Source: a virus. From it: a stretch of DNA of 40,387 bases. The notes below the pieces were generated by a model that was not told the DNA's origin, made no database searches, and saw nothing but the letters and a program-made list of their open reading frames with translations. The position numbers and the translations under genes were made by a program. Positions 8,614 through 36,890 of the stretch are shown here, one piece after another. Each line of letters starts with the position of its first letter. Position 1 is the stretch's first letter. The stretch spans positions 1 through 40,387 of IMG/VR virus record IMGVR_UViG_3300008952_003603, one strand, 5' to 3'.

Positions 8614-8819
8614 TCGGTGGTCCACTTTCTTCCGCACAATGCGCACCACCACTCTTTTTTTCCTTTTAAGAAATCACCTGTTTCGCGAACCATGGTCGAA
8701 TGCCCCTTTGGGCAGCTTTCGGGCTTCTTATATACGGGGGCCTTGGGGGCGGGAGGGGGTTCTGTCTGGCGGTCGTATAAATCTCCATATACCTTGTCCC
8801 AATCGATGTCGCCAAACAT
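8610..8819 (-). CDS. Small zinc-ribbon protein, 69 aa
   Basis: The 69-residue product has a proline-rich middle (TEPPPAPKAPVYKKP) and a C-terminal zinc-binding pattern: C36 with H40 nearby, then C59 and C62 (WWCALCGRKW). AGGAG lies six bases before ATG 8819, immediately after the stop of the glycosyltransferase gene. Function unknown. Such ribbons often bind nucleic acid or proteins. Confidence 0.65.
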   Translation of the reverse strand: MFGDIDWDKVYGDLYDRQTEPPPAPKAPVYKKPESCPKGHSTMVRETGDFLKGKKEWWCALCGRKWTTE

Positions 8820-8820
8820 T

Positions 8821-9819
8821 TTAAACTCCTATGGGCTGAGCTTTTTTTTCCTTATCTAGCTCGGGAAGTATATATTTAACTACAGCATTATACACACTCT
8901 CTGGAGGGATGGATCCGATGCAAAAACAGCCATCATGATCGGAGGCCGGAAAACACTTATGCTCATTAGCATTGGCCTTCAATATAATTGTTTTAGGACC
9001 TACGGGGCGTCGTTTTTCTATTTCGTCATCGCGGAAGAATACCATCAAGAATTTATCTAGGCCCGCTGCAAGATGGGCAAGATAAGAATCATTAGAGATG
9101 ACAACGTCGGCCGAATCTATGGCCGCCATGCACTCCTCAAGATTTAGCAGGCCTGCGAGATTTAGTGCAGCCGGGGCTAAATGTTCAATATGATTACATA
9201 TACCAATGCCTTCATAATCATCGACGAGGATAACTTTAAAATCGTTAGATAATAAATTTATAAATCTTGCATAATTCTCAATGCCCCAATTTTTCTTTAC
9301 ATCAATACCATCTTTCTTAAAACTTGGACAAACAACAACTTTTACCTTATCTTCAAAGGGGGCTAGCAAGGCATCTATGTGTTTAAAAGAATAGTGAGGA
9401 ATGTCATAAAGAGAAGATGGATTTTCTCCAATAATATTCTTCACCATTTCCAAGTTAATATCAACCTCGTGATTATGAGTTTCTGATATTCTTGGGGCGC
9501 GGATAATGGCTTCACAGTCTAAATATGGATATAACCACTTGAATCCAGTATTCGAAGGAAAGGACTCAATACATACATCTATTTTCTTGCTGACAATCCA
9601 CGCTATAGTAGCATCGCCATTCTTTTCTTTTGTGGCGTCGAAGCCCTTAACTCCATCGACATATTCAAGGTCGTTGAACAACCCTTCCATGTTTGGAAAA
9701 TCAGCCCCGCTATTAATTAATAGATAAACACTGTGTCCACTGCTGCTCAAAGCCTTTAAGACAGGAGTAAGCATGAGTGAACTTGAGGGGCTTCCATCTT
9801 TGAGTATTAGAATATTCAT
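8821..9819 (-). CDS. Glycosyltransferase family 9 (ADP-heptose:LPS heptosyltransferase-like)
   Basis: A 332-residue GT-B enzyme. The N-terminus has the GT9 start (MNILILKDGSPSSSLMLTPVLKAL) and the family's sugar-acceptor half. The C-terminal half has the nucleotide-sugar region VVISNDSYLAHLAAGLDKFLMVFF, matching the GT9 motif in which an aspartate and a small-residue helix bind ADP-sugar. GT9 enzymes normally add heptose or a related sugar to the LPS inner core. In a phage, the target could be host surface sugar, a virion protein or DNA; the sequence does not say which. The start follows AGGATGATAA, overlapping the end of the large glycosyltransferase gene, so both are likely made together. 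Confidence 0.8.
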   Translation of the reverse strand: MNILILKDGSPSSSLMLTPVLKALSSSGHSVYLLINSGADFPNMEGLFNDLEYVDGVKGFDATKEKNGDATIAWIVSKKIDVCIESFPSNTGFKWLYPYLDCEAIIRAPRISETHNHEVDINLEMVKNIIGENPSSLYDIPHYSFKHIDALLAPFEDKVKVVVCPSFKKDGIDVKKNWGIENYARFINLLSNDFKVILVDDYEGIGICNHIEHLAPAALNLAGLLNLEECMAAIDSADVVISNDSYLAHLAAGLDKFLMVFFRDDEIEKRRPVGPKTIILKANANEHKCFPASDHDGCFCIGSIPPESVYNAVVKYILPELDKEKKAQPIGV

Positions 9820-9822
9820 TTA

Positions 9823-12800
9823 TCATCCTGTAAAAGCTAGGTGTTGATTCCACTTTTCCTTGTTGGCCCACCGAAGAATGTCCTTGGGATGTTTTTTAAC
9901 ATCTATAAAAAGAACGTCTTCTGAATAAAATTGGGTCTCAAGCTGTCTAATATCCTCGTCGGTAATTTCTTCCACCGGCTTTTTGATCCATTTGCCCGTC
10001 TTGCGGCGATCGGACCCGGTGTCTCCATGATATCTAACCTGTTTTTTCCAGAAATTTTCCATAGAAGCCTTGCGTCCATAATCAACCCACGAGTAATGAT
10101 AAACGCAAGGTACTTCTTCTGTATTACAACAGTTGCTAAGCATCTCGCTATACTTCTTTTTATTAATATAGCTCATGGGATTATCCGTTCTAAAGTGGGC
10201 ATTCATCACATAAAGACGTCTATCCCAAACAATGGTGGTACGAATAAGGTGCCCGGTGTCTTCCCAAATGTATTCGCAGGAATCCGCATTCTCTCTTTCA
10301 AAGTATAAGTTGCCATCCTTGTATTTTCTAAACTGGATAGGTACATCGTGGACAATGTTGGGGAGGTTTTTAGAGAGGCGCCACTTATAGCAATTTTCTT
10401 TGGCACCGGTCGTCTTCATCCCTCCGTGGAATGTTATACAAGGGAGATCAAAGAGTACAGACGTTGGATCATTCCTGATGAGGTTTTTTATAGCAGGATA
10501 CTGCCATTCGGGGACCATTTCATCACAATCTGTTTGCCATAGGTACTCGCCCTTGCATAATCTCCGAGCGAATGTCTTTTGAACTCCCATCATATTGGGC
10601 TTCTCATAGTCCCATGAATTCTGATCTAAAACGAGGCGCTTACCCCATTTCTTTTTCTGCTTCTTCAATAGTTCCCATGTGCCATCAGTAGAACCTCCAT
10701 CTACCATGATAAATTCGTCAGAAAAGCCAAGATGATTTGATATAACTTCAGCTATAGGAAGCCCCATATCTATCCCATTTAGTATGATGCAATAGGTGCT
10801 AATGGAAACATCTTGAGCAAGATCAAAGATGTCAGACCAGCCTCGTTCTTTTGCCCAAGGAGATTCGCAGATAACTTGGATAACATCATCATAAATACTT
10901 ATATTATCTATACATTTCTTGGGCATTGGGCACTTGGCTAAATGACAAGGCTTTAGACACTCGCCTCTATGAGGAGGATTAATAGCTATAGAGATGCTCT
11001 TTCCTATTAAAACATAGGGGTCCTTCTGAGGGGTTTCGGGCAGAACTTCGCAGACTCCACCGGCCACCAGTTGGGGTCGGGGAATACAGTTTCGATCAAA
11101 GGTCGATCCGAACAGGGTGACACAGTCAGTTCCTACTGCGGCTGCGACATGGCCCGGGAATGAATCCATACCTATGTGAAGCTTAGACTTAGATAATATC
11201 CAAGCTAATTCTTGTGGACTCGTCTGGCCTCTTAAATCATAAACACCATGCTGCATTATATTGTTGAGAGGAGGGTCTTCCTTGCCACCAACATGGACTA
11301 TGGGTAATCTACAATACTTTATCAGCCCTTGCATATTATAATAATTTTTAATAGCCAAGGACGTCCCAGTATGAACTGTAATAAAGTCAGACTCCCAATC
11401 GAGTTCATCCAGCTTAAGGGCCTCTGGTTTTTTCTTTTCAATAAAAACATTCTCTGCCTTGACTCCGCACATGTCGGCATACACATCCATAAGATGTTTG
11501 CCATGACCATTATGAAGCCAATGGGGAATCTTCTGAGTTAATATATAGGGATTAAAGCACATCTTAAAGTGGCCAGCATCCTGATTGTTTCCCTCGGCAA
11601 CACGATAATCCATTAAAGAATTACTATACTTGATGACCTTTTTGATGTGGGGATTGCCCTCAAGGATATTCATGTATTTTTCCGAGGTGGCAAAATATAT
11701 GGAGGCATCTGGGTGCTTCTTGGCGATGCCGGCTACCACCGCTGTACTCAGAAGGACGTCACCGGCGGTTTCTGGCATAGCATAGAGAATTCTTTCCTTG
11801 TCAGTGGGGTCAATGACCTGAACGACGCTTTCGATACGCTCCTCTTCTCCCACTCTAAGTCTTTCAAGCTTATTATTTTCTTCGGCCTTATTTCGAAAGA
11901 ACTTCTCGATCTGTTCTACGGAGCGATCTGACTTCAGCCAGTCGATAACACCATCTTCATGAACATCTTCGTGGAGCACATTCTCATAGAGCCAACGGAT
12001 TGACTTTTCCTTGTCGTCTTTTATATTTGATGGTATTTGATCTGGGGCCTTCTTGATGTCGATGGGCTTATCCCACGTTTTACTTCTATCTTTGGCCTCA
12101 TCATTTCTAAAATAATTAATCCAAATATCTGCTGCCTTATCCCAGCTATTAAGAACGTGATCGCGTCCACGCAAGCCCTCTTTTTTACGGCGACCGGAAC
12201 TCCAACTACGCAGCGCCATGGTGACCTTTTTAGCGAAGTCTTCTTCGGAAAAAAGGGACCTTCTCTGCATGGTCCCCGAATCGGTGAAGGTTCCAGCTAT
12301 TTTCATTGGAATGCCACCGGGGGCATTAACCTGCTCTTCAGTTGCGCTCCACTCGGACGCTAAAATAGGAACACCGCAAGCTTTGGCCTCGCTCAGGGGC
12401 ATTCCATACCCCTCGCAAACGGAAGCTTGAACATACAAGTCCATCGCATTATAGATGTGTGCAAACTTGTCATTAGGCAAGCCCTTGCCAGTGTTGGGGG
12501 TCTTAACTGCCTTCTTTTGGCAGACCGGACAGGCACTCAGTTCGCCTCGCCAACTATCTATAAAAAAGTGATCACAATTGCTGCAGATAAAAGTAAATAA
12601 AACTCTATCCTGTAGCCCGTTGCGTTTAACCTCAAGGGGGATATCCCATCCTACATCGGGAATAGATGTGTGAAGAAGCAAGTAGGGAAGCTTTCTCTTG
12701 CTTTTTTTGATCTTATTGTTTTTCTTGTAGTGCCTATCCCACTCTTTTAGCATCTTTTTAAAAGAAAGGATGAGGCGAGGGTAGAGTTTGCGCTGTTGGT

Positions 12801-13452
12801 TGCGCATAACCGTACCTATAATAAGATCGTCTGGCTTGAGCCCTAGTGATTCTTTAATCTTCGCTTTGTCGAGGGGCTGGAAGGACTCGGTATCAACGCC
12901 TGGGGAGGGTGTACCTAAAACCTTAATTTTAGAACTTTGATTCTCCAGCACCTTCTTTCCGTACTGAGAATAGGTGAAAATAGCATCGGCCTTTTCATAC
13001 ATGTTGACCCACTCAGGCTTCTGAGGGTGACCATCGATGCAGGCCATGAGAGACCATTTGAAATTATCGCGCAGCTTTGTTTTGTGTTGCCATTCCACCA
13101 TCCACGGATCACGGATGTCGCAAACATAATCGGGGCGGAAATCTACTAAAACTTGATCAAATTTCCACTTGCCAAACTGGTTTAGCTTATAATCTTTTTT
13201 ATAGGCCTTGTCTTCGGAGGGGTCTGCGCGGAACTTCCCGTTGGCCCCCCTAACAATTTTGGGGAGGGCACCGTAGAATTTCCATGGGACATTATCAATT
13301 CGAGGATCATTGGACGACATATATGATCCATATTCTGCTACTTCAAATTCTCCCGTATCATTTATGCGACTTATTACTTCACGCCAGTATGTTGCAAAAC
13401 CCGTCATTAAGGGCGTGGCTTCGCCCAAAAAAAGAATTTTCTTCTTAGTCAT
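9823..13452 (-). CDS. Three-domain glycosyltransferase fusion (GT4-GT9-GT2), 1209 aa
   Basis: Residues 1-450 are a GT4 (group 1, GT-B) enzyme with the E-x7-E pair E347/E355 in CEGYGMPLSEA. A zinc-knuckle insertion interrupts it (C290, C293, C308, C311). A charged linker (about 450-550) follows. Residues about 553-830 are GT9-like: RILYAMPETAGDVLLSTAVV at the start and LHIGMDSFPGHVAAAVG at about 758-773. A Cys cluster (C832, C836, C841, C847) follows. Residues about 883-1120 are a GT2 (GT-A) enzyme with DGGSTDG at about 918-924 and the metal-binding D975/D977 in QTDCDEM. Three activities in one chain suggest ordered assembly of an oligosaccharide. The gene overlaps the sigma gene by eight bases. 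Acceptor unknown; host LPS, virion protein and modified DNA are all possible. Confidence 0.85.
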   Translation of the reverse strand: MTKKKILFLGEATPLMTGFATYWREVISRINDTGEFEVAEYGSYMSSNDPRIDNVPWKFYGALPKIVRGANGKFRADPSEDKAYKKDYKLNQFGKWKFDQVLVDFRPDYVCDIRDPWMVEWQHKTKLRDNFKWSLMACIDGHPQKPEWVNMYEKADAIFTYSQYGKKVLENQSSKIKVLGTPSPGVDTESFQPLDKAKIKESLGLKPDDLIIGTVMRNQQRKLYPRLILSFKKMLKEWDRHYKKNNKIKKSKRKLPYLLLHTSIPDVGWDIPLEVKRNGLQDRVLFTFICSNCDHFFIDSWRGELSACPVCQKKAVKTPNTGKGLPNDKFAHIYNAMDLYVQASVCEGYGMPLSEAKACGVPILASEWSATEEQVNAPGGIPMKIAGTFTDSGTMQRRSLFSEEDFAKKVTMALRSWSSGRRKKEGLRGRDHVLNSWDKAADIWINYFRNDEAKDRSKTWDKPIDIKKAPDQIPSNIKDDKEKSIRWLYENVLHEDVHEDGVIDWLKSDRSVEQIEKFFRNKAEENNKLERLRVGEEERIESVVQVIDPTDKERILYAMPETAGDVLLSTAVVAGIAKKHPDASIYFATSEKYMNILEGNPHIKKVIKYSNSLMDYRVAEGNNQDAGHFKMCFNPYILTQKIPHWLHNGHGKHLMDVYADMCGVKAENVFIEKKKPEALKLDELDWESDFITVHTGTSLAIKNYYNMQGLIKYCRLPIVHVGGKEDPPLNNIMQHGVYDLRGQTSPQELAWILSKSKLHIGMDSFPGHVAAAVGTDCVTLFGSTFDRNCIPRPQLVAGGVCEVLPETPQKDPYVLIGKSISIAINPPHRGECLKPCHLAKCPMPKKCIDNISIYDDVIQVICESPWAKERGWSDIFDLAQDVSISTYCIILNGIDMGLPIAEVISNHLGFSDEFIMVDGGSTDGTWELLKKQKKKWGKRLVLDQNSWDYEKPNMMGVQKTFARRLCKGEYLWQTDCDEMVPEWQYPAIKNLIRNDPTSVLFDLPCITFHGGMKTTGAKENCYKWRLSKNLPNIVHDVPIQFRKYKDGNLYFERENADSCEYIWEDTGHLIRTTIVWDRRLYVMNAHFRTDNPMSYINKKKYSEMLSNCCNTEEVPCVYHYSWVDYGRKASMENFWKKQVRYHGDTGSDRRKTGKWIKKPVEEITDEDIRQLETQFYSEDVLFIDVKKHPKDILRWANKEKWNQHLAFTG
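12249..12276 (-). terminator. Intragenic intrinsic-terminator-like hairpin
   Basis: On the minus strand a six-base GC-rich stem (GGGACC/GGTCCC, 12276-12271 and 12260-12255) with a ten-base loop is followed directly by six T residues (12254-12249). It lies inside the GT4 part of the fusion gene. Translating ribosomes would normally mask it, so it may act only when translation fails, or not at all. Confidence 0.35.
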
Positions 13453-14599: not shown

Positions 14600-14628
14600 A
14601 TTATACTATAAATTTTCTACTTTGTTAA
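14600..14628 (-). promoter_or_regulatory. Sigma-70 promoter for ssb and the sigma factor
   Basis: Minus strand TTAACA (14628-14623), 17 bases, TATAAT (14605-14600): 11 of 12 consensus bases. It overlaps the last codons of the polymerase C-half gene and lies about 40 bases before the ssb start, leaving a short leader with the AGGAGG. The position upstream of a gene gap supports it being real. Confidence 0.75.
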
Positions 14629-16246
14629 GTATAAAAGAATTTCCTTGTTTGTAACCAGTAACCTGCACAACATTCTCTTCTCTCAAACTATGGCGACACC
14701 TCCCATACTGTCGGGAAAATATTACACAACTATCAATCATGTAAGAACTATCTGAGATGGCAACGAAGGCCATGTCATTCCCATTTTTATCAACGTGCTT
14801 CTTAACCTTTTCGACCATGGCGGCAAATATAAAGCGGGAACCATCTGGTGCATCAACAAATTCCATGCACGGAGTATAGTCATCGACATATTTCTCATCG
14901 CCTGCCGTAAATGAAACTCCTATATAAAATTTCTCAAAACTGATTTCTCCGCGAACGCTCTCTGCCGTCATATATTTAATATGAGCATCTATCAATTCTC
15001 CTATGGCCTTGGCGCGCCGCGCGGTTGGTCGGCGCACGCCAACCTCCTCAAAGAATTTTTTATCCCGAGTGAGAAGTTCCTCAACCAAGTTGCGTAGGTT
15101 AAAATCACCCCCCTTCTTATGGTCGATAAGTGGAAAAGATATTATAAATTTTAGAACCTTCTTCTCATTGGGCGTCAACTCTCTGAGGAGATTGAAGTCC
15201 GCATACATATTATAACGTGAAACCTTAAATTTGTCAAGGGCCCCCGACCAAATTAATGCATCAAGCACAGTCTTCTTAGCTGGCTTATCAAAGAACTTCT
15301 TAACAAGCTCTTCGTAAGTTTTTACATCACATTTCTTAACCTCTCCATATGTAGATTTTCCAATGCCCTTGATGTGCGAGAGGCCAAAGGCAATATGCCT
15401 GTCTCCCACTATCTTAAAATCCATTGTTATTTCATCAATGCTGGGAGGCAAGACTTCTATGCCCATGAGCTTCCCATCATTTACAATTGTTAATATCTGA
15501 TCTGTTTGCTCCTTTGAACCTGTTCCAGATTTGTTTAAAAGGGCGGTAAAAAACTCTGTTGTATAATGGGTCTTTGCCCAGGCTGTCTTATAGGCAAGGG
15601 TAGCATAACAGACGGCGTGTGACTTATTGAAGGCATAACCGGACATTGGTAGAATCCAATTCCAAATCTGATCTGCTAGCTCTTGCTCGTAACCATTCTT
15701 TAGACATCCACCAACAAATTTTTCTTTCATTTCCGCCAGCTGCTCTGGCAATTTCTTGCCTACTGCTTTGCGAATTTTGTCTGCTTCTACGAGGTCCAAT
15801 CCGGCGATCTGCCATGCTAATTCCATTATCTGCTCTTGATATACAAGGGCGCCAAATGTCGGACCTAAGATAGGCTCAAGATCAGGATGAAGAAAGGAGG
15901 CAGGCTTGTGTCCTAACTTAACCGCTATATACTCTTCCATCATGCCGGCCTTCAGTGGACCGGTACGAGCCAGGCTTGTAAAGTCGGCCAACGAAAGAAT
16001 AGAGGTTGGCTTGAACTGGCCAATCCACTTGCGGGCCGTTGGGCCTTCAATCTGAAAGACTCCTATGGGGCTGCGTGCAATAATATCAAAGACGAGCGGA
16101 CAATCCTTCTTCATTGTTTCGATGTTGAAGGACACATCCTTGCGACATCCACATTTAAAGTTCGGGGAGTCCACGTCTCTTGCGCCATTGGTTGACTTGA
16201 CCGAGCTTGCCTTCGCGGACGAGCCTGTCTTTTTGCTTTTTATCAT
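14606..16246 (-). CDS. dnaE: DNA polymerase III alpha subunit, C-terminal half (fingers, HhH, OB)
   Basis: This 546-residue protein carries the part of PolIII alpha after the catalytic palm: VFQIEGPTARKWI and RTGPLKAGMMEEYI, the fingers helices with LVYQEQIMELAWQIAGLDL, SGYAFNKSHAVCYATLAYKT, a helix-hairpin-helix region (GLSHIKGIG), and a C-terminal OB-like domain (FAAMVEKVKKHVDKNGNDMA). It begins exactly where the N-half product stops, so the two would assemble into one enzyme. The start is uncertain. I chose ATG 16246, which has GGAAGAGAGAGG upstream but overlaps the zinc-ribbon gene by about 90 bases out of frame. A longer start at 16312 and shorter starts near 16114 are possible. A basic Ser/Lys-rich linker opens the protein. 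Confidence 0.85.
   Translation of the reverse strand: MIKSKKTGSSAKASSVKSTNGARDVDSPNFKCGCRKDVSFNIETMKKDCPLVFDIIARSPIGVFQIEGPTARKWIGQFKPTSILSLADFTSLARTGPLKAGMMEEYIAVKLGHKPASFLHPDLEPILGPTFGALVYQEQIMELAWQIAGLDLVEADKIRKAVGKKLPEQLAEMKEKFVGGCLKNGYEQELADQIWNWILPMSGYAFNKSHAVCYATLAYKTAWAKTHYTTEFFTALLNKSGTGSKEQTDQILTIVNDGKLMGIEVLPPSIDEITMDFKIVGDRHIAFGLSHIKGIGKSTYGEVKKCDVKTYEELVKKFFDKPAKKTVLDALIWSGALDKFKVSRYNMYADFNLLRELTPNEKKVLKFIISFPLIDHKKGGDFNLRNLVEELLTRDKKFFEEVGVRRPTARRAKAIGELIDAHIKYMTAESVRGEISFEKFYIGVSFTAGDEKYVDDYTPCMEFVDAPDGSRFIFAAMVEKVKKHVDKNGNDMAFVAISDSSYMIDSCVIFSRQYGRCRHSLREENVVQVTGYKQGNSFILNKVENL
15209..15237 (-). promoter_or_regulatory. Perfect sigma-70 promoter inside the polymerase C-half gene
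   Basis: TTGACA (15237-15232), 17 bases, TATAAT (15214-15209) on the minus strand, matching consensus at all 12 positions. It is embedded in coding sequence and would transcribe the end of the polymerase gene, ssb, the sigma gene and the glycosyltransferases. Confidence 0.6.
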
Positions 16247-16538
16247 TTGCCTCTCTCTTCCTTTCAGTCTGCTCAGCGAACCACTCCTTTGGCTTAGTGT
16301 GTTCGCGAGCAAATGAATCCTTTTCCATTAAGTCTCTTATCTTTATTTCTGTTCGAGTACCAACTCTGGCGTTACCATGATATCTAAAGGTATCAACTGA
16401 CTCACACTTTGGACAAGGATGCCCGCCCTCACTCATTTTAGCAATTGTCATGAAGGCTTGCCAAATTTCTTCGCACCCCTTACATTTAAAATCATATCTT
16501 ATAGGATGATTTCCACCAGTAATATTCCATTCAACCAT
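16155..16538 (-). CDS. Zinc-ribbon protein inserted between the two polymerase halves
   Basis: A 127-residue protein with a FmdB-like zinc ribbon: C19/C22 (YDFKCKGC) and C42/C45 (HPCPKC). A helical, strongly charged C-terminal two-thirds follows (KPKEWFAEQTERKREANDKK). ATG 16538 is favoured over a TTG two codons earlier because GGGAGG lies six bases upstream. The gene begins directly after the stop of the polymerase N-half, and its last 90 or so bases overlap the C-half frame. No nuclease motif is visible, so it is not an obvious homing gene. It could be a polymerase-associated factor or a passenger. Function unknown. Confidence 0.75.
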   Translation of the reverse strand: MVEWNITGGNHPIRYDFKCKGCEEIWQAFMTIAKMSEGGHPCPKCESVDTFRYHGNARVGTRTEIKIRDLMEKDSFAREHTKPKEWFAEQTERKREANDKKQKDRLVREGKLGQVNQWRKRRGLPEL

Positions 16539-16540
16539 TC

Positions 16541-18265
16541 TCAACCTCCCTCAACCAAACCCCTTGTAATTGAAAGTATGTCAAGATTTTTAAGACCAAG
16601 AATGTCTGCCTTAAGTAAGTTCATTTTGTCCAACGAATGATAATCATAACCTGTCACAATCTTTTTACCCTTAGGATCCCAAGTCATTGGTATTAATCCC
16701 TCCTCTACATTTCTATCAAGAATGATATAAGCAGAAGGGTGGATAGACGTATGACGTGGCATATCAACAAGATGTTCAGCTATTTTAAACAAAGTACCAT
16801 ACTTTTTTCGCCACTTATTAAGATCATCGGACAAGTAGGCCTCAGCAAAGCTATCAGTCTTTGCGGGTATTGTAGAGGTAATGGTGTTGACCTCCTCATG
16901 AGGCATGCCTAAAGTTCTACCGATATCCTTCAATACGCCCTTGATTTTCATCTTTCCAAAAGATACCACTGGTAGGACGCGGTCCTTGCCAAAAGTATGC
17001 TCAATAAAATCAATAACCTTTGTGCGACTATCCTGAGAGAAGTCCGCATCAATATCCGGAAGTCCAACACCTGCTCGTCCACTATTCCAAAAGCGCTCCC
17101 AATACAATTTGTAGGGCATGGGGTCAATATTGGTGATGCCAAGCATGTAAGAAATGAGGCTACCTGCGGCGCTTCCGCGGCCATCACCTGTTTCTATTCC
17201 GCCATCGCGGGCCCATTTGATGTAGTGCTGAGTTATTAGGAAATAGTCGGCTAGATCACAACCCTCAATATCTTTCAACTCTCTTTGTACACGATCATTA
17301 TATTCGGAGGCATTCTTGCGGGCGCCGAACCCCTTACTATACCAGGCGTCCCTTAACATCTTCTTCAAGAAATCAAGAGAGGAGAGTTCGCCCGGCACAA
17401 ATGGGTATTGAGGAATTTTAATATCCTTATCGATGGTGACATTACATCTATCTGCAACCTTTTGGGTTTCCCAGATCTCCTCTCTATGCCATCCCTCTTC
17501 TTCCAGAATCTCCTCGTCCTTCATGTAGTATTCGTCGGTAGAAAAGGCGAAGCGCTTTCCGCCCTCATAGAGGGGCTTGTCGGACATCTTGCTATTGGTA
17601 TTTATCGCAAGGAGCACTTCGTGATAATAAGCGTCATCCTTATTAACATAGTGACTATCGTTACTAACTATGCGAGGAATGCCCATCTTCTTAGACCAGT
17701 GACGCAGCTTCTTGGTTATCTTTGGCTGACCTGGCACACCGCTATCTTGGACTTCAATATAGAAGCGATCCTCGAATACTTCGCGCAACTTCTTAATGAG
17801 AGCGATCGCCTTGTCATCTTCATCGTTGAGCGCATGCTGTGAAATTAAAGATGCAAAGCAGCCGCTGAAAACTATCAGCCCCTCTTGATTTTCAATAAGA
17901 TCATCTACCGTGATGCGCGGATTAAAATAAAACTGCGAGGCGGCGCGGGCCGTAAGACGATTAAGGCTTTTCAAGCCATCATTATTCATCGCAATCACAC
18001 TCATGTGCGAATTGATGCGCTTATTCTTGTCCTCCTCATTTTTGAGACTATAGCCCATGTAAAATTCGCATCCCAGAATCGGTTTAATCCCAGCCTTCTG
18101 GCACGCATCATAAAATTCTACATGACCGTAGCAGTTACCATGGTCCATTATACCAAGGGAGTCCTGCCCCATTTCTTTTGCCCTCTCTACCATTGATGTA
18201 ATAGTAGACTTTCCATCGAGCAAGCTATAAAAACTATGATTGTGTAAATTGCAAAAGCAAGCCAT
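16541..18265 (-). CDS. dnaE: DNA polymerase III alpha subunit, N-terminal half (PHP and palm)
   Basis: This 574-residue protein starts with the PHP domain (NLHNHSFYSLLDGK, residues 6-19; IMDHGNCYG, 39-47; FSGCFASL; SNDSHYVNKDDAYYHEVLLA), then the palm with DGRGSAAGSLISYMLG (about 361-376). All three catalytic aspartates are here: D406 and D408 in LPDIDADF, and D554 in LKADILGL, equivalent to E. coli D401, D403 and D555. The chain stops a few residues after the last of these (LDILSITRGLVEGG), at the loop that precedes the fingers, and the fingers are encoded by the gene at 14606-16246. It synthesises phage DNA with the RecA, helicase and primase encoded upstream. SD AGAGGA precedes ATG 18265. 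Confidence 0.93.
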   Translation of the reverse strand: MACFCNLHNHSFYSLLDGKSTITSMVERAKEMGQDSLGIMDHGNCYGHVEFYDACQKAGIKPILGCEFYMGYSLKNEEDKNKRINSHMSVIAMNNDGLKSLNRLTARAASQFYFNPRITVDDLIENQEGLIVFSGCFASLISQHALNDEDDKAIALIKKLREVFEDRFYIEVQDSGVPGQPKITKKLRHWSKKMGIPRIVSNDSHYVNKDDAYYHEVLLAINTNSKMSDKPLYEGGKRFAFSTDEYYMKDEEILEEEGWHREEIWETQKVADRCNVTIDKDIKIPQYPFVPGELSSLDFLKKMLRDAWYSKGFGARKNASEYNDRVQRELKDIEGCDLADYFLITQHYIKWARDGGIETGDGRGSAAGSLISYMLGITNIDPMPYKLYWERFWNSGRAGVGLPDIDADFSQDSRTKVIDFIEHTFGKDRVLPVVSFGKMKIKGVLKDIGRTLGMPHEEVNTITSTIPAKTDSFAEAYLSDDLNKWRKKYGTLFKIAEHLVDMPRHTSIHPSAYIILDRNVEEGLIPMTWDPKGKKIVTGYDYHSLDKMNLLKADILGLKNLDILSITRGLVEGG

Positions 18266-27278: not shown

Positions 27279-30200
27279 TTAGGTGTGAGCCACCCAGTCA
27301 AAAGAAATATTTCCGTTTTCGTTGCTAGGACTGGGGCCTTCCCAGTCATAGCCGACGCCGACACGATCTAAGTCTTCCCAAGAAGAACCAGGGTTTGGGT
27401 AGCCACCCCCCGACGTTGATTCTAGCTGACCAGCATACGACCAGTTGACGCCATCTAAACTATAATACAAGAATGTAGTAGTTGAACCTGAGCGCTTTGT
27501 TAATAAAAATATATTCGCGCCCATGGGCTCGATGTCATTTACGGGATCTTCTCGTAGGAGCGTCCCATTAGGGTGGTAGTGCCTGAGTTTTAACTTATAT
27601 GTCACATTAGCGGAAGCGTCTTTGCCCACACAAAAGAAGGTGGTATTAGTTGTAGCACTTTCTAAGATGATCCCGGCCCACAAATCTTCTTCAATTGTTG
27701 CAATATCTAGCGAACATGCTATTACCCTATGATTATCTGCATTAAAACCGGTGTCGGCCTTATATATATGCTTGAGTATAGGAGTTCCGGCATTTCCCAA
27801 GGTTTCATCTATGTAAAGATATCCATTACCAGATGTATCTACCTTAAAAGCAGGAGACTCGTGAGTTTGCCAATCTGAGAGATTATCCTGCTTCCAATGG
27901 TAGGTTCTCCTCTTTGTTACAACCCCGTAATTATCTAGCGTGTCTTCAAAGTAGGACGCGGGGCGGGGGACATCGAGGGGGTTTAAAAAGGACGTCAAAG
28001 TGTCGGGCGTTGCTGTACCAACTATGGTGCCAACGTCATCTTTGCCGCCACCTTTATTTGTATCTTCTATGACCAGGTTGCCATTCTCAATTGAAATTAC
28101 CGGGGGGAGAGTTCTGAATTCATCACGCCCCGATCCATCACTAATGGGGGGCAAGCTCAAGACATCGAAGCGGAAGGGCTTTATAATGTTGCCAAAGGGT
28201 AGGCGCTCATTCTCTCCAAGGGGTGCGGGCCTCCCAAATTCAGCAAAGTGAGATTTTAACCCATAGGAAGTCTGATAGCCGCCTGTGCCGAACTGAACCC
28301 CCATGTCACTGATCCCGTGGTTGGGCACCCCATAAAGACCGCTGGTTGCACCCGTAGTAGAAAATTCTTGAAGGGCGAAGTCATCAAAGGAAACTTCAGG
28401 CAAGCCCGTCTTGGTTACCGAGGCAAACCTTGTTTTACCAAACCTATTGGCGCGCGATGCTACAAGATTTTTAGCATAGAAATTCATCAACTCCACCGAT
28501 GTTCCGGGGCCCGTATAGGAGGCGCTTGTAATTTCGCCCCTTGGGGGGAAGTTCCAGGGCGCAAAATTTTCATCAATATTGATAGTTTTCTTATAGACCC
28601 CCGAGGCGGTTGCATCGCTAACCCAAGACTCTGGATACGACTCCCCATAACGCTTTACAGATTGAACAGGTATGGCAATCTTTCCAGTCCACCGAGTAGT
28701 ATCATCATCCTTTATATTGTTGTGTATTGCTTCATATAGTTCAACTAAGTCATTGTAGTTCGCTATTCCGTCTGGGGCCGATATTGCATCGGTTGTTGGG
28801 TCAATGAAGACAACAAAGCGAAGAGGGTTGGCCAAGGTTGCTGTGCCCATCGTGAGCGACGCGGGATAATTATGCTCTGTGTTGTCTCCGTCATTGTGGA
28901 GAACCCCGAAAACTCCTCCTTCAAATGATGCCGTATCGATGGCGTTGTTATATTTTGATATAAATGGCGAGATGGAAGTTCCCAATATGGCCTCAGTATC
29001 ATTAGATATGAGAGAAATATTGTCCATATTGCGAATAGATCTAACTTTCCCAATTTTAGTAAGATTCGACAGATAGGCAACCTCTATCTTTGAACTATCA
29101 ATATTGGTAACAGAAACAGCGACGGGATCAGTTAGGGTAAAGGTGTCGTTATCGGCCGAAGTGATAACACCGGAGGCGGGAGAAATAGATAGCAAATCTG
29201 TCTTTCCACTATAGAGGGGCGCACCTGCGGCTTTTAAATTGTAGGCAGATACGACACCAGATTCATGGACACGATCAATGGATATAGAGCTGGAATAGCC
29301 TTCGTCTAATTTAAGAACTGGGCCGTAATGAAAAGGAGTCCCTGCCGAGTCCGGGGCTAAGAAGTTATAGGGCTCCACCGGCAGTGTAGAAGTGACACCC
29401 GAGGCTCTAACGCAAGCAACCATTGGTGACGCGGAAAAAAAATGGGCAGCAGGATAGTAGTCAGGGCCTAAGTCAACTGCGGGGCCGGTACTAGCAAAGG
29501 TATTATCAGTAGGATCTACCCTGTATGGCGCTCCAATCAGCACCGTATTGAACTCTGAGTCAAATGCAATAGCCTTATTGGCAAAACCGGAATATCTTTT
29601 TGTATCAGGGGATCCAGAGTAACTCCCCCAGGGGGTAAAATGGCTATATTGACCAGAGAATACATATTTATTTTTATATCTTCCCGCCACCTTTTCATAT
29701 ACAAACATCCCCATTGAAACATGAGGGGGGTTGGTCCCGGCGCCGACTGATTCAGAACATCCAGCTGCAATTATATCTCCAGAAGAAGACACTCTGATGG
29801 AGTATCCAAGGGAGCGCAAATTACTCTTCATTGGTTTGTCTATTATTTGTGCGACTTCATACACACCCTGATCCAATTTTCGCTCTATAACATAAATAGC
29901 CCCCTCACCAACAGGGGTGTTGGGTGTGCCTAGAGCGATAACAGATGCGTCCAAGTTACAATCAATGTAAATACCACCTGTTACACCCTCTATTGATATA
30001 TGATATTGAAGATCGGTAGAAAGGAAGGCGGATGATAAGCTCGATCTCTTATATATTCTTATCGCCTTAGTGGAAACTCCTGTCGTTATGGCTGTAACCA
30101 CGTAGAAACCATCACCAGAAATCTTTACCTGGCTTCGCTCCCAGGCTCCCGATGTTTGCAAAGATTCCGTAACTACAGCTGCCGCCATGCTCCAGCTCGG

Positions 30201-33200
30201 TGAAGTGTGGCGCTCAAAATAAAACCACCCCGGGCCTGGGGTCGGAGATGTAGTCCCCCTTCGAGTTGATACCATATGCTTTCCGTCATCTGATATAGAT
30301 ATATCAAGTCCAATATTATCATGAGCCAACGCGGCCGGATGAGTTACACTGCCGAGAAAACTCCAATCATCCCCACTTCTTTCGTAAGTATGTATGGATC
30401 CCCCATTTAAAATTGTGCCCGATGACAAATCAATATTGGGTGAACCTATTGCTACCGTTGTTCCATCGCCACTTATTACAGCCGATGTTCCAAACTTATC
30501 ATCGTCTCCCGGAGCGCTACTTAAGGTTGGAGTAAAAAACAAGGACCACTTATTGCCTGTTTTTTTATAAACATAAGCCGAAGGAGTTAAGGTGATATCA
30601 TAATTGCGCTGGCCCGGGGCCCCAACAACCGCATATTTTCCATCATGTGAAAGATCAACGGCCTCCCCAAACTGGGTGCTCCTAACAGATGAGCCGATAT
30701 GGAAATTTACGCCAAAAGGATCTCCGGTCACCTGCTCTTCCCAGTCACTGCTAAATAAATTTACAAAAGTATCATCTCTTAATTCAGTGAAATCAACATC
30801 TATAACGGGAACCGTTGTTGCAATCCCATATGCTCCCGCCGTGGGATTGGTGCCGGGGGTCGGAATATCTCCCCCGCCCCATTGCACATCTGTTAATCCA
30901 GCGTGCCCACTGCCCGCAATATTAAGATAATTAGAAAGAGAATTTTTATAAGATAAAACAAATTCGGGACAAGCCGTTGCTGGATCATTTAAAAAATATC
31001 TGCTAACGGAGATCTCCTGGGCGCCGGCACTAAAGATGGTGCTAATTTCACTGCCCAAAATATCGGGAGTTATAGTTGAAGATCCTAGTATACCTATATT
31101 GTCATCTTCGACCTTGCCTAAAATTGCGCTGACTCCGGAAGCTGCAGAGCCATAAGCAAGCACAAAAACACCAGAGCCAGATATATCATCATAGAGGGAC
31201 TCAATGTCAAGACAATTTATGGGACCTTCGTGAAAGATGTATTCATCGCCCCAATATGTGGGAGAGGAACCGTCCTGTTTAAAATTGAGCAGTTTTCCTC
31301 TGAACTCCGTAACATTTGCGTAAGATAGGGGTATCTCATCGTTCCAACCCCCCAAGCTTTTTCCGCTCTTACTTGGGGCGGGAATTGCAAGTGTGAGTGT
31401 CGTCGGCTTTCCAACATATTGATTCGGAAGATCACCCGGCTCTCTAAAACCCGCATCTGGAGCTTGCCAGGGGCCTGCACCTATCGCAACTATCGAGCCA
31501 TCTTTATTGACATCAATGGCACGACCATAGTAGTTATTTTCTGCAGTAGACTCTGAGAAAAGTTTTTTGTTGAGCATAAAACGCCCTGTTTGCTCATCCC
31601 AAACCTGTATGGCGCCGGCCCTAGATAGTAGCTCATGTGTTTCGCCCGGCTGACCAACTGTCACAATCTTTCCATCTGATGAAATCGAAACAGAATGGCC
31701 AAAGTTAGAGTGACTGGCTCCGTCTATGTCATAGATTTTATCAAAAAGCTCCCACTTACTATCTGTTTCATTGTAATCGTAGATGTAGGCGGCGCCCTTG
31801 TTGTCATTTGTGGAAGATAAGCTTTCAAGGGGCGCACCAACAACTATTCTTTTCCCATTGGCAATTGAGACGGAATTTCCATGTCCAGTTGAGGTTCCAA
31901 ATGTTGCAGAATGGCCACGGGCAGGATTAATAGTCGGATCAAAACCAGGTGGATTTGAAATCCGAAAACAACCTTCGAATAAAAAATCCTCCGCCCCCGG
32001 AGTTGCTCCAACTCTATCAATAATGGCAACTTGGTCACTATTTTTTGTTCCTACTATGACCTGCTCTCCGTCAGAAGAAATGTCAATAGAATGACCAAAT
32101 CTCTGAAAAGAATTGGTGTCCAAAGATTGTGCCGCATATATTTTAGAAATGCTCGTGGAAGTCAATTCAGCATTCCAAACACCCAAATCTGACAACTGGC
32201 CCTTAAAAAAACCGCCGGTCCCAGGAAAACCTCCTCCGGTCCAGTTTCCTCCCGCCCCAAGATATAAACCATTCCAATCCGCCGATGTCAGAGCATGAGG
32301 CAGGGAGACCGCACCAGTACCCACGGTTTCCTCTGTGCCATCTAAGTATATCTTTGCTAGCCCGCTAGATAGTAAATAGGTAACTGCGCCATGATACCAC
32401 ACTCCTGGCTGTATGGTGGTTGATCCTCGTATTTCGGAGCCGGTGGAGCTTGTTCCGGTCCTAAAACACAACCTATAATCTCCAGGGGTATCTCTGTCAG
32501 AAATGAGCATGGTTCTATTTTTCGGATCAAAACCACTATTGCCTATCATCGCTATCACCATATGGCTACTAACAGTTTCACACTTGAACCAGGAAGAGAA
32601 TGTTAACTCGGCGGGGCCATTATTTGGAAACGAAACAAGAGAGAGATCTGAGCTTAGGCCCGAATGGTTTGAGTGAACATAATCATTTGCCCCATCGAAG
32701 TGTAACGAGTGGCAAGTTGGGCCGGACACACCTCCGTTGGAAACCCAGGTGGGCCCATTAACTAGGGTGCCATAATAATTGTTTGACGTAAGAGGAGATC
32801 CTACTGTGGTGTTTGAAGACCCAGACTCATAAGCCTGACGAGGCCCGCCGCCGGATGACCAACTAGTACCACCCCCATCATTAAATTTATAATAAGCCGT
32901 AGGAATTGGGTCCGAGGGGGGAGAACCAGATATGCTGGAAGCAACTTCTTCGCTAAGTCGGACCCAGGAACCACTAACTTTTCTCCAGTAGTCAAAGCCC
33001 CCCAATTCTTTTGCCTCTGTAGCAGAAAGATGTCTCCTGAAGGGGGCTCCTAAAACTATCCTTTCTCCGGAATCATCTATGGCTACTGACCACCCGAGTT
33101 GGCCACCAAAATTGGTACTAAAACAATAGCCATTACCTAGCTCGCCCTCTAATGACCACGGTCGCCCGGCATAAAGACTGGTGGGGGCAACTAGCTCCAG

Positions 33201-36200
33201 TGAAGCCCCAAAGGTGTGACCTATATACCCCGGGGCCGACAACAACAAGTAATCATCAAATTCGGACCACCCGTTTGGAAATTCTCCCTCTTCTAATTGG
33301 CTTCCATACACAATAATATCCCCAAGAGAAGACGTGGAAGTACTTGCAGGAAATAAAAACCATTCACAATTATTGTTGGTGGAAATAGTAGATCCAGAAT
33401 ATGTTACTGCAACCCTGTACCAACCACTCCCAACTGGCTTAGGAGTATGTATTGTGGGAACTTCTCCAGACGTATTGGTTAAAATTGGGACGCCGGAAGA
33501 CCACGTAATATCAACATCACTTGTAGCCGTAACTGTACTAGAAATTTTAAAATCGAAGGTAAACTTTGATTTAATTGATGTGCCTTCCTTAACAAACAAT
33601 GAAAAAGTATATGGACTATTTGCCGCAAGGAAGGCTCCGCCGTTTCCAGTAGACATCCCCTCTGTCAAGGAGGCGTCATCATCTCCTATGCTCCACGCTC
33701 CGGTAATACCAGGGACACCGCCAGGAGGATTTCCAAAGGGATCATTTTGATTATGCAAAATTACCGGAGTTCCAGCTATCGTGCGCCAACGAGTAATTAT
33801 CCCCATATCCCAACGATTACTATCCAAAAGGATATTTGTTGCACTAACACTTCTTTTATAGACATATCCACGCCCCACCTTGGAGGGGTTTGCTAATCCA
33901 GTGGAAACCTTGTAGCCTGGAGACCCAACGACTATAGTGTCACCATCACCATCAATATCTACATCAAAACCAAAGTGATCACCAAGAATAGCTGTCGGTG
34001 CAAAAAGCGTCCGATCCAACTCCCAAGAAGACCCGACCTTATCATAGATGTGAATTGCGCCGCTATTTTCTTCAAGTCCCGATGCCGCCGTCATTGGTGC
34101 ACCCACAACCATTGTGGTTCCACTGGCTGCGACCGCCACCGAGTAACCATCACCATACCCTTGAGGGCCCGCGTAGGTTTGTTTTGCCGAGGTAGCGTGC
34201 CCTAAGTATTCTGAAGGGTAATCAATAATATTTCCAGAAACCACCTCTTCTACTTGTGCACCATAAAATAATACAGATTCAGTTTTTAAAGTTCCAGGGA
34301 GCGAAGGATATATGGATAATTGAGCAGCCGTATTGTCAACATTTGCAAAGGTAAAGGCGACCCTATACCACCCTTGACCAACCTCCTGTATCGGATGTGG
34401 AGTATTGGTCCCAAGAACTGTGGTAATGGTCGGACTAGGCGAAGCGTTTAAAACCACTCCAATCAAATGATTAGTTGGAGAAGGTCCAGATAGAGCAATC
34501 GAAAAGGAGCAAGTATGTATACCTGGCGGAACCTGAACGCCCTCTTTAACATAAAATGAACATGTATAAGACTTTCCAGCAGAGATAGAAAAGCTTTGAT
34601 TTACCCCGTCAGGCGTACCGGCACCGGATGTATTATTTTTTATCAGAGTTGCTTCAAATGGTGCGCCGAACGGACCCGCATAAGACTTTGTTATGGTTGG
34701 GGCTCCGGACGATGTCCAGTTGGATGTGCTAAAATCATTGCTATCAAGTAAAAGATTCTTGTAGGCAACCTCGTCTGATGCCGTGGTCTGGGTCGCTATT
34801 GTCTCGTAGGCAATTATTCCCGAGCCTCCGGGCAAGCTTGCCATTGACATATTCTGAACATTGTGAGCATCAAAGCAATATGATGTTCCCATGTCTGCGG
34901 TAGATAATATACCGCTAGATGATAATGGGTGTCCGGGCACCGTAAGGGAACCATCGAAATATTCGTAGGGCTTAATAAGATAGGTAGGATCTAAGAAGTC
35001 AATTTGAGAATTTATATTTTCATTAAAGATTCCACTGACGAAAGGGTTGGAAGACAAACTAACATCTCTCAGGAGTGCTTCGCCAGGGATCTTTCCAAAT
35101 TGGCAAACTACCGTGCCGGGCTCATAAGTTAAGAAGGGGCTTTCTGCCGCCCTTGGATCCTTGGTAAAGTTGTCCACAGTCATCAAGTTTACAGGTACAT
35201 ACTGGTGCCCCTTGGAAGCATCCACATTCCAGCGGTCGAATTCATCTGGCGACTCCGACCCATCTTTTCCGTGGGCCGTATAGGCTGGCAGAACTGCGTA
35301 GGCACCAACCCTGGTGTCTTCTTTTATGAAGGGTGCGAGGGGCTGATAGTCCGGATCTATGGCATAATTGGGACCGAAGGAGAGGCCGGAAGGCAATTGA
35401 TTCTCCACGTTGCCCCAGGCTGCATCGGTCGTGGCAAATAGGCCATAATCCTTGTCGATAAGGATGCCTTCTGCTGCATATACGCGACCATAGAAGTTGT
35501 CAGCAATATTCTTAACCTTCTCATACCACTCCATGATCCAGTTTTGATTCTGACTTTTCTTAGAAGGTATGTATTTTTTTCCACTATAATAATTGGTGAG
35601 GGCAATCTGCTCTAACACGAGAGCCTTGTTGGAAGCACTCAAGGAGTCAAGATTAGTCTGAGTTCCGCCCAAGGTGGGAAACCCCTCGGTGATGTCACCG
35701 CCCGCAACTATAAGATCAATAATGGCTTGATCGACAAATTTATCGTCTATGCGGGACTGGAAATTGGGATCTTGTGCGGCCAAAAAGCCGGCATCCGAAG
35801 CAAAGCCCAGAGTCGTCTGATGCTTCTTGAAGACAGACCAATAGTCGAACCCCTTCATGGCGAGGGGCAATTCTCTTTCCGGCGGTATATAGGTGCGATA
35901 AATACCGGCCGAATCATAGAAGCCCACCGTAAGGCTATCCCAAGCTTTTACAAACTTGATGCCCGAGGGGGTGGGCAGACCATCTATGGGGGAGAGCAAG
36001 TCACTGTCTATGAAACCTTCCTGGCGCGCCCCAAGGATCCCCACATAGTCATCGGCATCCGTCTCATCGACGCCCCAGCGAACATTCGTTGTGTAGCCAC
36101 TGCTATTTGGAATGGGAATATTATCTTCAGTAATTTGGAAATCTACCGCCCTATTTACAATTGCTACGCGCTCGCCTTCCAGCAGCCAATACCAATCAAA

Positions 36201-36890
36201 GCCCAAATCATTAAGTACCGTGGTTAGCACGCTCCTAAGGGAGGAGCCATCGAACTTCCAGCGGAACAAGTCCAAACTGACGTTAAGGCCGCTGGCCGTT
36301 ATAGGCAGATTGCTCTCTACTATGCTGGCCTCTGGAAAGAGGTTTTCGGGATCGAAGCCCAGGCCGCTGACATAGGGGGAGTTGATGATTGTGGAGCGCA
36401 GATCCTCGTAGAGGGCACCCTCTTCATTGTTCTGGACGTAGCGGCGATCTTCACTAGTTAGGGCACCGGGAACTGATTCTCGCAGGTAGGAACCTACCGA
36501 CAAAATTCCTCTACCATCTAGGGTGGTCAGCCCCCCTTGGTCCTCCGTAAAGATTGATACATTGTCAAGATCCTTGCGGCGGTCCTGCAAACTAATGGTG
36601 GCCGTGGTGCCGCTCATCGTATCGGAGTATTCCACATGGGTGACGCGCCCCGCCACCGTAAAGAAGTCGGGACCTATGTAGAACTTTGCCGCCGTGCCGA
36701 TTTCGGGCAACGTGTCGAGGGAACCGCCAAAGCTATCTTGCACAACATCGATGTCAAAAGTATGAGGACTATCATTGAAGCCAAACTTAGCATTCATGCC
36801 GGCGAAGTATCCGGGAATAGTTATGCCAAAACCGCTTCCGGGTGGAACTCCAGCGCTGGCACCTGCTACAGATATACTATATGCGTTCAT
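27279..36890 (-). CDS. Giant composite tail adhesin, 3203 aa (hub-like N-terminus, FG-GAP repeats, LamG, lectin-like end)
   Basis: Residues 1 to about 160 resemble a baseplate-hub start (ITIPGYFAGMNAKFGF, GPDFFTVAGRVTHVEY, then LQDRRKDLDN). Residues about 710-900 and 1020-1225 are two carbohydrate-binding-like modules, each with an LLLDSN- or ILLDSN-type opening, a central SFYVKEG- or SLFVKEG-type strand, GWYRVA and a YGAQ/YGSQ-L/V-EE end. FG-GAP/propeller repeats (about 910-1285, 1597-1810 and 2070-2460) recur with GxSVxISxDGxxVxVGxP; one, DVDIDGDGDTIVVG, looks calcium-binding. A LamG-like region spans about 1330-1590 (YYKFNDGGG to LYLGAGGNW). About 2460-3000 return to structural sequence. 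The last 200 residues are the lectin-like domain ending DWVAHT. It is very long for a tail protein and probably binds host surface. No protease or lysin motif seen. Confidence 0.85.
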   Translation of the reverse strand: MNAYSISVAGASAGVPPGSGFGITIPGYFAGMNAKFGFNDSPHTFDIDVVQDSFGGSLDTLPEIGTAAKFYIGPDFFTVAGRVTHVEYSDTMSGTTATISLQDRRKDLDNVSIFTEDQGGLTTLDGRGILSVGSYLRESVPGALTSEDRRYVQNNEEGALYEDLRSTIINSPYVSGLGFDPENLFPEASIVESNLPITASGLNVSLDLFRWKFDGSSLRSVLTTVLNDLGFDWYWLLEGERVAIVNRAVDFQITEDNIPIPNSSGYTTNVRWGVDETDADDYVGILGARQEGFIDSDLLSPIDGLPTPSGIKFVKAWDSLTVGFYDSAGIYRTYIPPERELPLAMKGFDYWSVFKKHQTTLGFASDAGFLAAQDPNFQSRIDDKFVDQAIIDLIVAGGDITEGFPTLGGTQTNLDSLSASNKALVLEQIALTNYYSGKKYIPSKKSQNQNWIMEWYEKVKNIADNFYGRVYAAEGILIDKDYGLFATTDAAWGNVENQLPSGLSFGPNYAIDPDYQPLAPFIKEDTRVGAYAVLPAYTAHGKDGSESPDEFDRWNVDASKGHQYVPVNLMTVDNFTKDPRAAESPFLTYEPGTVVCQFGKIPGEALLRDVSLSSNPFVSGIFNENINSQIDFLDPTYLIKPYEYFDGSLTVPGHPLSSSGILSTADMGTSYCFDAHNVQNMSMASLPGGSGIIAYETIATQTTASDEVAYKNLLLDSNDFSTSNWTSSGAPTITKSYAGPFGAPFEATLIKNNTSGAGTPDGVNQSFSISAGKSYTCSFYVKEGVQVPPGIHTCSFSIALSGPSPTNHLIGVVLNASPSPTITTVLGTNTPHPIQEVGQGWYRVAFTFANVDNTAAQLSIYPSLPGTLKTESVLFYGAQVEEVVSGNIIDYPSEYLGHATSAKQTYAGPQGYGDGYSVAVAASGTTMVVGAPMTAASGLEENSGAIHIYDKVGSSWELDRTLFAPTAILGDHFGFDVDIDGDGDTIVVGSPGYKVSTGLANPSKVGRGYVYKRSVSATNILLDSNRWDMGIITRWRTIAGTPVILHNQNDPFGNPPGGVPGITGAWSIGDDDASLTEGMSTGNGGAFLAANSPYTFSLFVKEGTSIKSKFTFDFKISSTVTATSDVDITWSSGVPILTNTSGEVPTIHTPKPVGSGWYRVAVTYSGSTISTNNNCEWFLFPASTSTSSLGDIIVYGSQLEEGEFPNGWSEFDDYLLLSAPGYIGHTFGASLELVAPTSLYAGRPWSLEGELGNGYCFSTNFGGQLGWSVAIDDSGERIVLGAPFRRHLSATEAKELGGFDYWRKVSGSWVRLSEEVASSISGSPPSDPIPTAYYKFNDGGGTSWSSGGGPRQAYESGSSNTTVGSPLTSNNYYGTLVNGPTWVSNGGVSGPTCHSLHFDGANDYVHSNHSGLSSDLSLVSFPNNGPAELTFSSWFKCETVSSHMVIAMIGNSGFDPKNRTMLISDRDTPGDYRLCFRTGTSSTGSEIRGSTTIQPGVWYHGAVTYLLSSGLAKIYLDGTEETVGTGAVSLPHALTSADWNGLYLGAGGNWTGGGFPGTGGFFKGQLSDLGVWNAELTSTSISKIYAAQSLDTNSFQRFGHSIDISSDGEQVIVGTKNSDQVAIIDRVGATPGAEDFLFEGCFRISNPPGFDPTINPARGHSATFGTSTGHGNSVSIANGKRIVVGAPLESLSSTNDNKGAAYIYDYNETDSKWELFDKIYDIDGASHSNFGHSVSISSDGKIVTVGQPGETHELLSRAGAIQVWDEQTGRFMLNKKLFSESTAENNYYGRAIDVNKDGSIVAIGAGPWQAPDAGFREPGDLPNQYVGKPTTLTLAIPAPSKSGKSLGGWNDEIPLSYANVTEFRGKLLNFKQDGSSPTYWGDEYIFHEGPINCLDIESLYDDISGSGVFVLAYGSAASGVSAILGKVEDDNIGILGSSTITPDILGSEISTIFSAGAQEISVSRYFLNDPATACPEFVLSYKNSLSNYLNIAGSGHAGLTDVQWGGGDIPTPGTNPTAGAYGIATTVPVIDVDFTELRDDTFVNLFSSDWEEQVTGDPFGVNFHIGSSVRSTQFGEAVDLSHDGKYAVVGAPGQRNYDITLTPSAYVYKKTGNKWSLFFTPTLSSAPGDDDKFGTSAVISGDGTTVAIGSPNIDLSSGTILNGGSIHTYERSGDDWSFLGSVTHPAALAHDNIGLDISISDDGKHMVSTRRGTTSPTPGPGWFYFERHTSPSWSMAAAVVTESLQTSGAWERSQVKISGDGFYVVTAITTGVSTKAIRIYKRSSLSSAFLSTDLQYHISIEGVTGGIYIDCNLDASVIALGTPNTPVGEGAIYVIERKLDQGVYEVAQIIDKPMKSNLRSLGYSIRVSSSGDIIAAGCSESVGAGTNPPHVSMGMFVYEKVAGRYKNKYVFSGQYSHFTPWGSYSGSPDTKRYSGFANKAIAFDSEFNTVLIGAPYRVDPTDNTFASTGPAVDLGPDYYPAAHFFSASPMVACVRASGVTSTLPVEPYNFLAPDSAGTPFHYGPVLKLDEGYSSSISIDRVHESGVVSAYNLKAAGAPLYSGKTDLLSISPASGVITSADNDTFTLTDPVAVSVTNIDSSKIEVAYLSNLTKIGKVRSIRNMDNISLISNDTEAILGTSISPFISKYNNAIDTASFEGGVFGVLHNDGDNTEHNYPASLTMGTATLANPLRFVVFIDPTTDAISAPDGIANYNDLVELYEAIHNNIKDDDTTRWTGKIAIPVQSVKRYGESYPESWVSDATASGVYKKTINIDENFAPWNFPPRGEITSASYTGPGTSVELMNFYAKNLVASRANRFGKTRFASVTKTGLPEVSFDDFALQEFSTTGATSGLYGVPNHGISDMGVQFGTGGYQTSYGLKSHFAEFGRPAPLGENERLPFGNIIKPFRFDVLSLPPISDGSGRDEFRTLPPVISIENGNLVIEDTNKGGGKDDVGTIVGTATPDTLTSFLNPLDVPRPASYFEDTLDNYGVVTKRRTYHWKQDNLSDWQTHESPAFKVDTSGNGYLYIDETLGNAGTPILKHIYKADTGFNADNHRVIACSLDIATIEEDLWAGIILESATTNTTFFCVGKDASANVTYKLKLRHYHPNGTLLREDPVNDIEPMGANIFLLTKRSGSTTTFLYYSLDGVNWSYAGQLESTSGGGYPNPGSSWEDLDRVGVGYDWEGPSPSNENGNISFDWVAHT
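29520..34150 (-). repeat. FG-GAP/beta-propeller repeat array within the giant tail gene
   Basis: At the protein level about twelve to fourteen units of 50-90 residues are visible, each with a small-residue/hydrophobic strand, then DGxxVxVGxP or a variant, then a loop and an IYxY/VYKR-type strand. The best copies encode QFGEAVDLSHDGKYAVVGAP, KFGTSAVISGDGTTVAIGSP, NFGHSVSISSDGKIVTVG and RFGHSIDISSDGEQVIVG. Units are broken up by the second sugar-binding-like module and a LamG-like region. Propellers of this kind mediate adhesion in integrin alpha chains and bacterial surface proteins. Confidence 0.75.

Follow-up and report, generated by a model that had tools for sequence, protein, structure and literature searches.

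In cyanobacteria, the replicative polymerase DnaE is encoded by two genes that are broken near the motif YxFNKSHS, and the halves are ligated by trans-splicing of a split intein. Two-chain replication enzymes have also been described in phages. In T4-like phages such as 25 and 44RR, the family B polymerase (PolB) is encoded as gp43A and gp43B, and the ribonucleotide reductase NrdA of phage Aeh1 is divided in a similar manner; the insert between the genes is an endonuclease gene or untranslated sequence, and the arrangement is confined to a few T4-like phages (PMC2988022). The split gp43A/43B proteins of phage 25 co-purify and show polymerase activity, and the two-chain NrdA of Aeh1 has activity as well (PMC2988022). 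Group 2.2 jumbo phages have a minimal split DNA polymerase III alpha subunit (PolIII-alpha), whose two chains are inferred to reconstitute a catalytic enzyme; it consists of the catalytic core only, has no PHP or other PolIII domains, and its genes lie far from each other in phages that also carry PolB (Iyer et al. 2021, PMC7824862). The present report concerns a dnaE locus in the viral IMG/VR contig IMGVR_UViG_3300008952_003603, which was analysed over its full length of 40,387 bp (the window). Comparison of sequences and predicted structures suggests that this locus very probably encodes a complete family C replicase as two non-spliced chains that would assemble non-covalently.

As in gp43A/gp43B and Aeh1 NrdA, an essential replication enzyme is here divided between two genes with an insert between them; unlike those systems, which are PolB or ribonucleotide reductase, the enzyme is DnaE, for which we infer assembly and activity. 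In contrast to the PolIII-alpha of jumbo phages, PHP, HhH and OB domains are present, the halves lie in one operon and no PolB was found in ten contigs from relatives. The locus resembles the cyanobacterial genes in building DnaE from two genes, but the site of the break is different and there is no intein sequence. The arrangement is a variant among known two-chain phage enzymes, and no description of it was found in open-access full text, although an earlier mention is still possible. The components of the locus are as follows.

16541 to 18265, minus strand: dnaE-N, the PHP and palm/thumb half of DnaE, 574 amino acids
17048 to 17056, minus strand: codons of the catalytic aspartates of the PDID motif (D404 at 17054–17056, D406 at 17048–17050)
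16604 to 16606, minus strand: codon of the third catalytic aspartate, D554, in KADILGL, invariant in alignments
16155 to 16538, minus strand: open reading frame (ORF) for an FmdB-like zinc ribbon between the halves, 127 amino acids from ATG, with a TTG at 16544 as a possible start
14606 to 16246, minus strand: dnaE-C, the fingers, HhH and OB half, 546 amino acids from the ATG at 16246, or 522 from the alternative GTG at 16174
16148 to 16156, minus strand: codons of the C-G-C motif, dnaE-C residues 31–33, the third conserved cysteine being residue 48

An earlier note on this DNA had described two dnaE genes, the first with PHP and all three catalytic aspartates and the second with fingers, HhH and OB regions, and this description is confirmed. 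dnaE-N matches the Pfam families PHP (PF02811, 5.6e-42) and DNA_pol3_alpha (PF07733, 2.4e-68), contains D404, D406 and D554, and ends about 16 residues past LKADILGL. dnaE-C matches the fingers (PF17657, 5e-37) and HHH_6 (PF14579, 4.5e-11) families, while its OB match is weak, falling below the Pfam cut-off but present in the structural model; the domain order PHP, palm, fingers, HhH and OB that defines a family C DnaE is therefore complete across the two chains. In a profile match to PHROG 405, positions 42–614 are covered by dnaE-N and 624–1081 by dnaE-C. Aligned with Taq DnaE, dnaE-N runs up to residue 635 and dnaE-C begins at 639, so that the two parts are just a few linker residues apart and next to nothing has been lost at the break, in keeping with the earlier observation that the C-half resumes within 15–20 residues. 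No substitution of a catalytic aspartate is seen in 48 aligned N-halves or in a set of 44 split and 55 fused sequences, and the split genes also retain the PHP ligands. Single-chain AlphaFold models are confident for both halves (pLDDT 91.6 for dnaE-N and 88.9 for dnaE-C), and in each case the best matches in the PDB are bacterial DnaE, with a TMq of 0.83–0.89 for dnaE-N and of about 0.45–0.66, with a larger root-mean-square deviation, for dnaE-C. The poorer superposition of dnaE-C is as would be expected if its domains take different relative angles.

The same layout is present in a second contig, IMGVR_UViG_3300007513_002149, at 99.98–100% identity over about 13.6–13.7 kb spanning the locus, and the split is thus not an assembly error in a single contig. 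According to the earlier note, uninterrupted relatives would have pointed to such an error; fused relatives do exist, at 35–39% identity, but an assembly error or frameshift was nevertheless rejected in view of the coding ORF in the gap, the agreeing second contig and the many split relatives. Each of dnaE-N, the middle ORF and dnaE-C is preceded by a plausible Shine–Dalgarno sequence. The halves would be translated separately from one operon, without splicing, would fold independently and would then, most likely, associate non-covalently. The N-half would supply the active site that binds metal, together with the PHP domain, whose retained ligands make it a possible proofreading nuclease, while the C-half would supply the fingers, HhH and OB parts that bind DNA.

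The earlier note had proposed a search for phage DnaE broken at the same loop. Relatives in IMG/VR were collected by alignment-based scans, single-sequence scans with each half having returned the second contig only. dnaE is split at this linker in 81 of 151 viral loci and whole in 70; after removal of near-duplicates, 59 of 111 loci are split and 52 are whole, fractions that depend on the sampling of loci and are not a census. The split N-halves end 16–39 residues past the LGL motif, nearly all of them at 16–26. As a control, bacterial genomes were scanned with the profile of split C-halves, which matched ordinary dnaE: none of 80 bacterial loci is split at this linker, 74 read through it in a single full-length frame, and the remaining six are likewise single frames, shortened or cut by contig ends, with no second piece. 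Some contigs carry more than one split gene or further interruptions. The 206 kb contig IMGVR_UViG_3300024358_000009 contains two different split dnaE loci (L131 and L136, with two PF07733 matches), as does one other contig (L132 and L135). In L130, L131 and L132, dnaE-C (about 8792–11784) is broken again near query residue 740–746 by approximately 0.9 kb, leaving dnaE in three pieces, and L062 (8827–11220) has an apparent insertion inside dnaE-C with intein-like and HNH-like sequence.

Among sequenced phages, tblastn found no close relatives, only distant DnaE of about 28–36% identity, mostly in one piece; the best matches (~30–36%) are mainly faecal records named ‘Bacteriophage sp.’. One of these, MT836213.1 (L010), reads as bacterial chromosome, with dnaE followed by a 6-phosphofructokinase-like ORF, and the other MT83xxxx records that dominate the matches may likewise be bacterial chromosome. 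Gordonia phage Terapin, Rhodococcus phage ChewyVIII and Microbacterium phage MortySmith have neighbouring dnaE pieces that are annotated as two polymerase genes and in some cases enclose a small ORF, but their break is at the boundary between PHP and palm, about 280 residues earlier, and separates PHP only. In Bacillus phage Jayan (L095), too, dnaE carries the annotation of two polymerase genes; a small ORF separates them, and the break is elsewhere again (~residue 410).

The gap in the window holds a 127-residue ORF that the earlier note did not mention and that resembles a real gene: its codon score is 0.23, compared with 0.20 ± 0.18 for windows in the right frame and −0.29 for the wrong frame, and its Shine–Dalgarno sequence is strong. 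Both C-x-x-C pairs are present, and in Pfam and PHROG searches the sole match was to a zinc ribbon (Zn_ribbon_8, 3e-5, 24.4 bits against a curated cut-off of 34.4), with no significant match to an endonuclease. Homologues of this ORF lie between the halves in L015, L016, L021, L096, L097, L098 and L124; in the lineage that these loci form with the window, a small zinc ribbon with cysteine pairs is always found in the gap, and Zn_ribbon_8, below its cut-off, is the best Pfam match wherever the ORFs were scanned. Further genes accompany it in some members, namely RNase HII in L021, and a dUTPase, an ORF with no Pfam match and a thymidine kinase in L096 and L098.

A different gene is characteristic of the large split clade. 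Wherever the contig extends far enough, profile searches find a DnaQ-type DEDD exonuclease in the gap, with few exceptions and sometimes alongside other genes; the copy in L075 matches PF00929 (1e-12), and residues D17, E19, D135, H200 and D205 are near-invariant in 68 copies. Neither gene was found near fused dnaE, in searches with profiles that had been trained on these same split loci. The type of gap gene follows lineage, which, given that training, is an association and not an independent test. The palm/fingers linker would be a tolerated fission site across this clade of uncultivated phages and, once dnaE had been opened there, other genes, a DnaQ-like exonuclease or an FmdB-like zinc ribbon depending on lineage, would have come to occupy the gap. 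Outside the clade, L026 has a 78-residue ORF of unknown family between the halves. In L047 (8057–10561), the gap contains an 834-residue ORF with RCC1-like repeats.

Rejoining of the halves into one chain, whether by RNA splicing of an intron or by protein trans-splicing of a split intein, is very improbable. Cyanobacterial DnaE offers a precedent for the split intein, and Bacillus phage vB_BauM_KLEB27-3 for the intron: its dnaE is also interrupted after the palm, but ~30 residues downstream, by a probable group I intron that carries an HNH gene. In a similarly permissive Rfam search that intron scored 22 bits, below the gathering threshold. No Rfam intron was matched at the window junction even at E ≤ 1, over the whole window at gathering thresholds, or in four other split loci (E ≤ 0.05), and an intron-interrupted dnaE of the group I type was rejected for want of any such structure at the junction. 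A split-intein DnaE was also rejected, because the tails of the N-halves and the heads of the C-halves, which extend about 15–40 residues before homology begins, are too short for intein fragments; no intein motifs were found flanking the break, and NKSH is intact and internal to dnaE-C, both as the earlier note had stated. In relatives, the gap consists of 0.25–3.4 kb of ordinary genes, each with its own start. In view of the lack of Rfam introns and the shortness of the ends, the halves are most likely separate proteins.

It is also very improbable that the locus is a decayed polymerase pseudogene, interrupted in a phage that uses another polymerase. The window is only 40 kb, and a second polymerase could lie elsewhere, but the catalytic residues are invariant in all split genes, the frames are open in dozens of divergent relatives, and dnaE-C has its own Shine–Dalgarno sequence. 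Furthermore, no family A or B polymerase (PolA or PolB) was found in ten contigs of 82–230 kb that carry split dnaE, all of which match PF07733. Certain observations nonetheless weigh against a working two-chain enzyme. The ten contigs may be incomplete, and another polymerase could lie outside them. Distances for N- and C-halves are no more strongly correlated in split (r = 0.94) than in fused genes (r = 0.95); the correlation therefore mostly reflects shared history and does not discriminate. The start of dnaE-C is also uncertain: the ATG at 16246 has the best Shine–Dalgarno sequence and overlaps the middle ORF by 92 nucleotides, yet the first 21 residues from it are modelled with a pLDDT below 50, and the GTG at 16174 would match the usual start in relatives, with methionine a few residues ahead of CGC. 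The earlier note had left a choice between a two-chain polymerase that must assemble and a recent, tolerated insertion. The former is the better supported, by a break at the same site in 59 of 111 loci, a conserved active site, the failure to find PolA or PolB in the ten contigs and to detect an intron or intein; the latter is not supported, as the split is found widely, is ancient in one large clade at least, and encloses genes that are lineage-specific. It is unlikely that the enzyme is a three-polypeptide polymerase in which the split has been recurrently selected, with the CxC...C junction and the gap gene, DnaQ-like exonuclease or zinc ribbon, as functional parts and co-translation guiding assembly.

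For the history of the split, trees were built in quick mode; given their long branches, the number of fissions is uncertain. Those of the N-half and of the C-half both recover a single well-supported phage clade that comprises the window, the exonuclease clade and the fused relatives. Split and fused genes are interspersed within it, which suggests repeated fission as the probable course, or else fission with later re-fusion; starred branches require three or more changes of state, and five is the minimum for the tree. A single split in the common ancestor of this clade, with the uninterrupted relatives as re-fusions, is possible but not the favoured history. A single origin is favoured by the CxC...C motif with which dnaE-C begins in both the exonuclease clade and the lineage of the window: of 51 split C-halves, 44 have a CxC near the new N-terminus, compared with none of 52 fused linkers. 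Placing all split genes in one clade is, moreover, just borderline rejected (p-AU 0.045). The fused relatives, however, have an ordinary, canonical DnaE linker free of cysteine, which favours the fused state as ancestral and fission as recurrent, and rejection of the single clade firms to p 0.011 once L021 is left out, in addition to the state changes already required. A clade uniting the window with the other zinc-ribbon loci is compatible with the data (p 0.45). As for the origin of the interruption, it is doubtful that a homing endonuclease created it and has since degenerated into the passenger gene now in the gap, or given way to it. Such mob genes split Aeh1 nrdA and T4 gene 60 (PMC2988022), and HNH-like genes adjoin the DnaQ-like exonuclease in L042 (8023–8670) and L094 (2130–2813), the only ones among the gaps listed; against this, the middle ORF of the window has no significant endonuclease match, and in most relatives the gap holds no endonuclease gene.

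Elsewhere in the window, the replication module includes SSB, a TOPRIM primase, a DnaB-like helicase, RecA and a PD-(D/E)XK nuclease. Two long ORFs are also present: one of 1209 amino acids (9823–13452), in which several glycosyltransferase-type domains are apparently fused in one protein, and a repeat-containing one of 3203 amino acids (27279–36890) that is probably structural or part of the tail.

Since the same position is cut in dozens of uncultured relatives, the divided dnaE appears to be a lasting design for a functional polymerase and not the remains of a broken gene. The case also suggests that a dnaE found in two parts in a metagenomic phage should not by default be labelled a frameshift, pseudogene or intein. 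The clade raises the question of why the linker between palm and fingers is a repeated site of fission, and of whether placing a proofreading exonuclease gene between the halves makes a new kind of holoenzyme. The natural pairs of split and intact DnaE offer a way to ask how much covalent continuity this polymerase needs.

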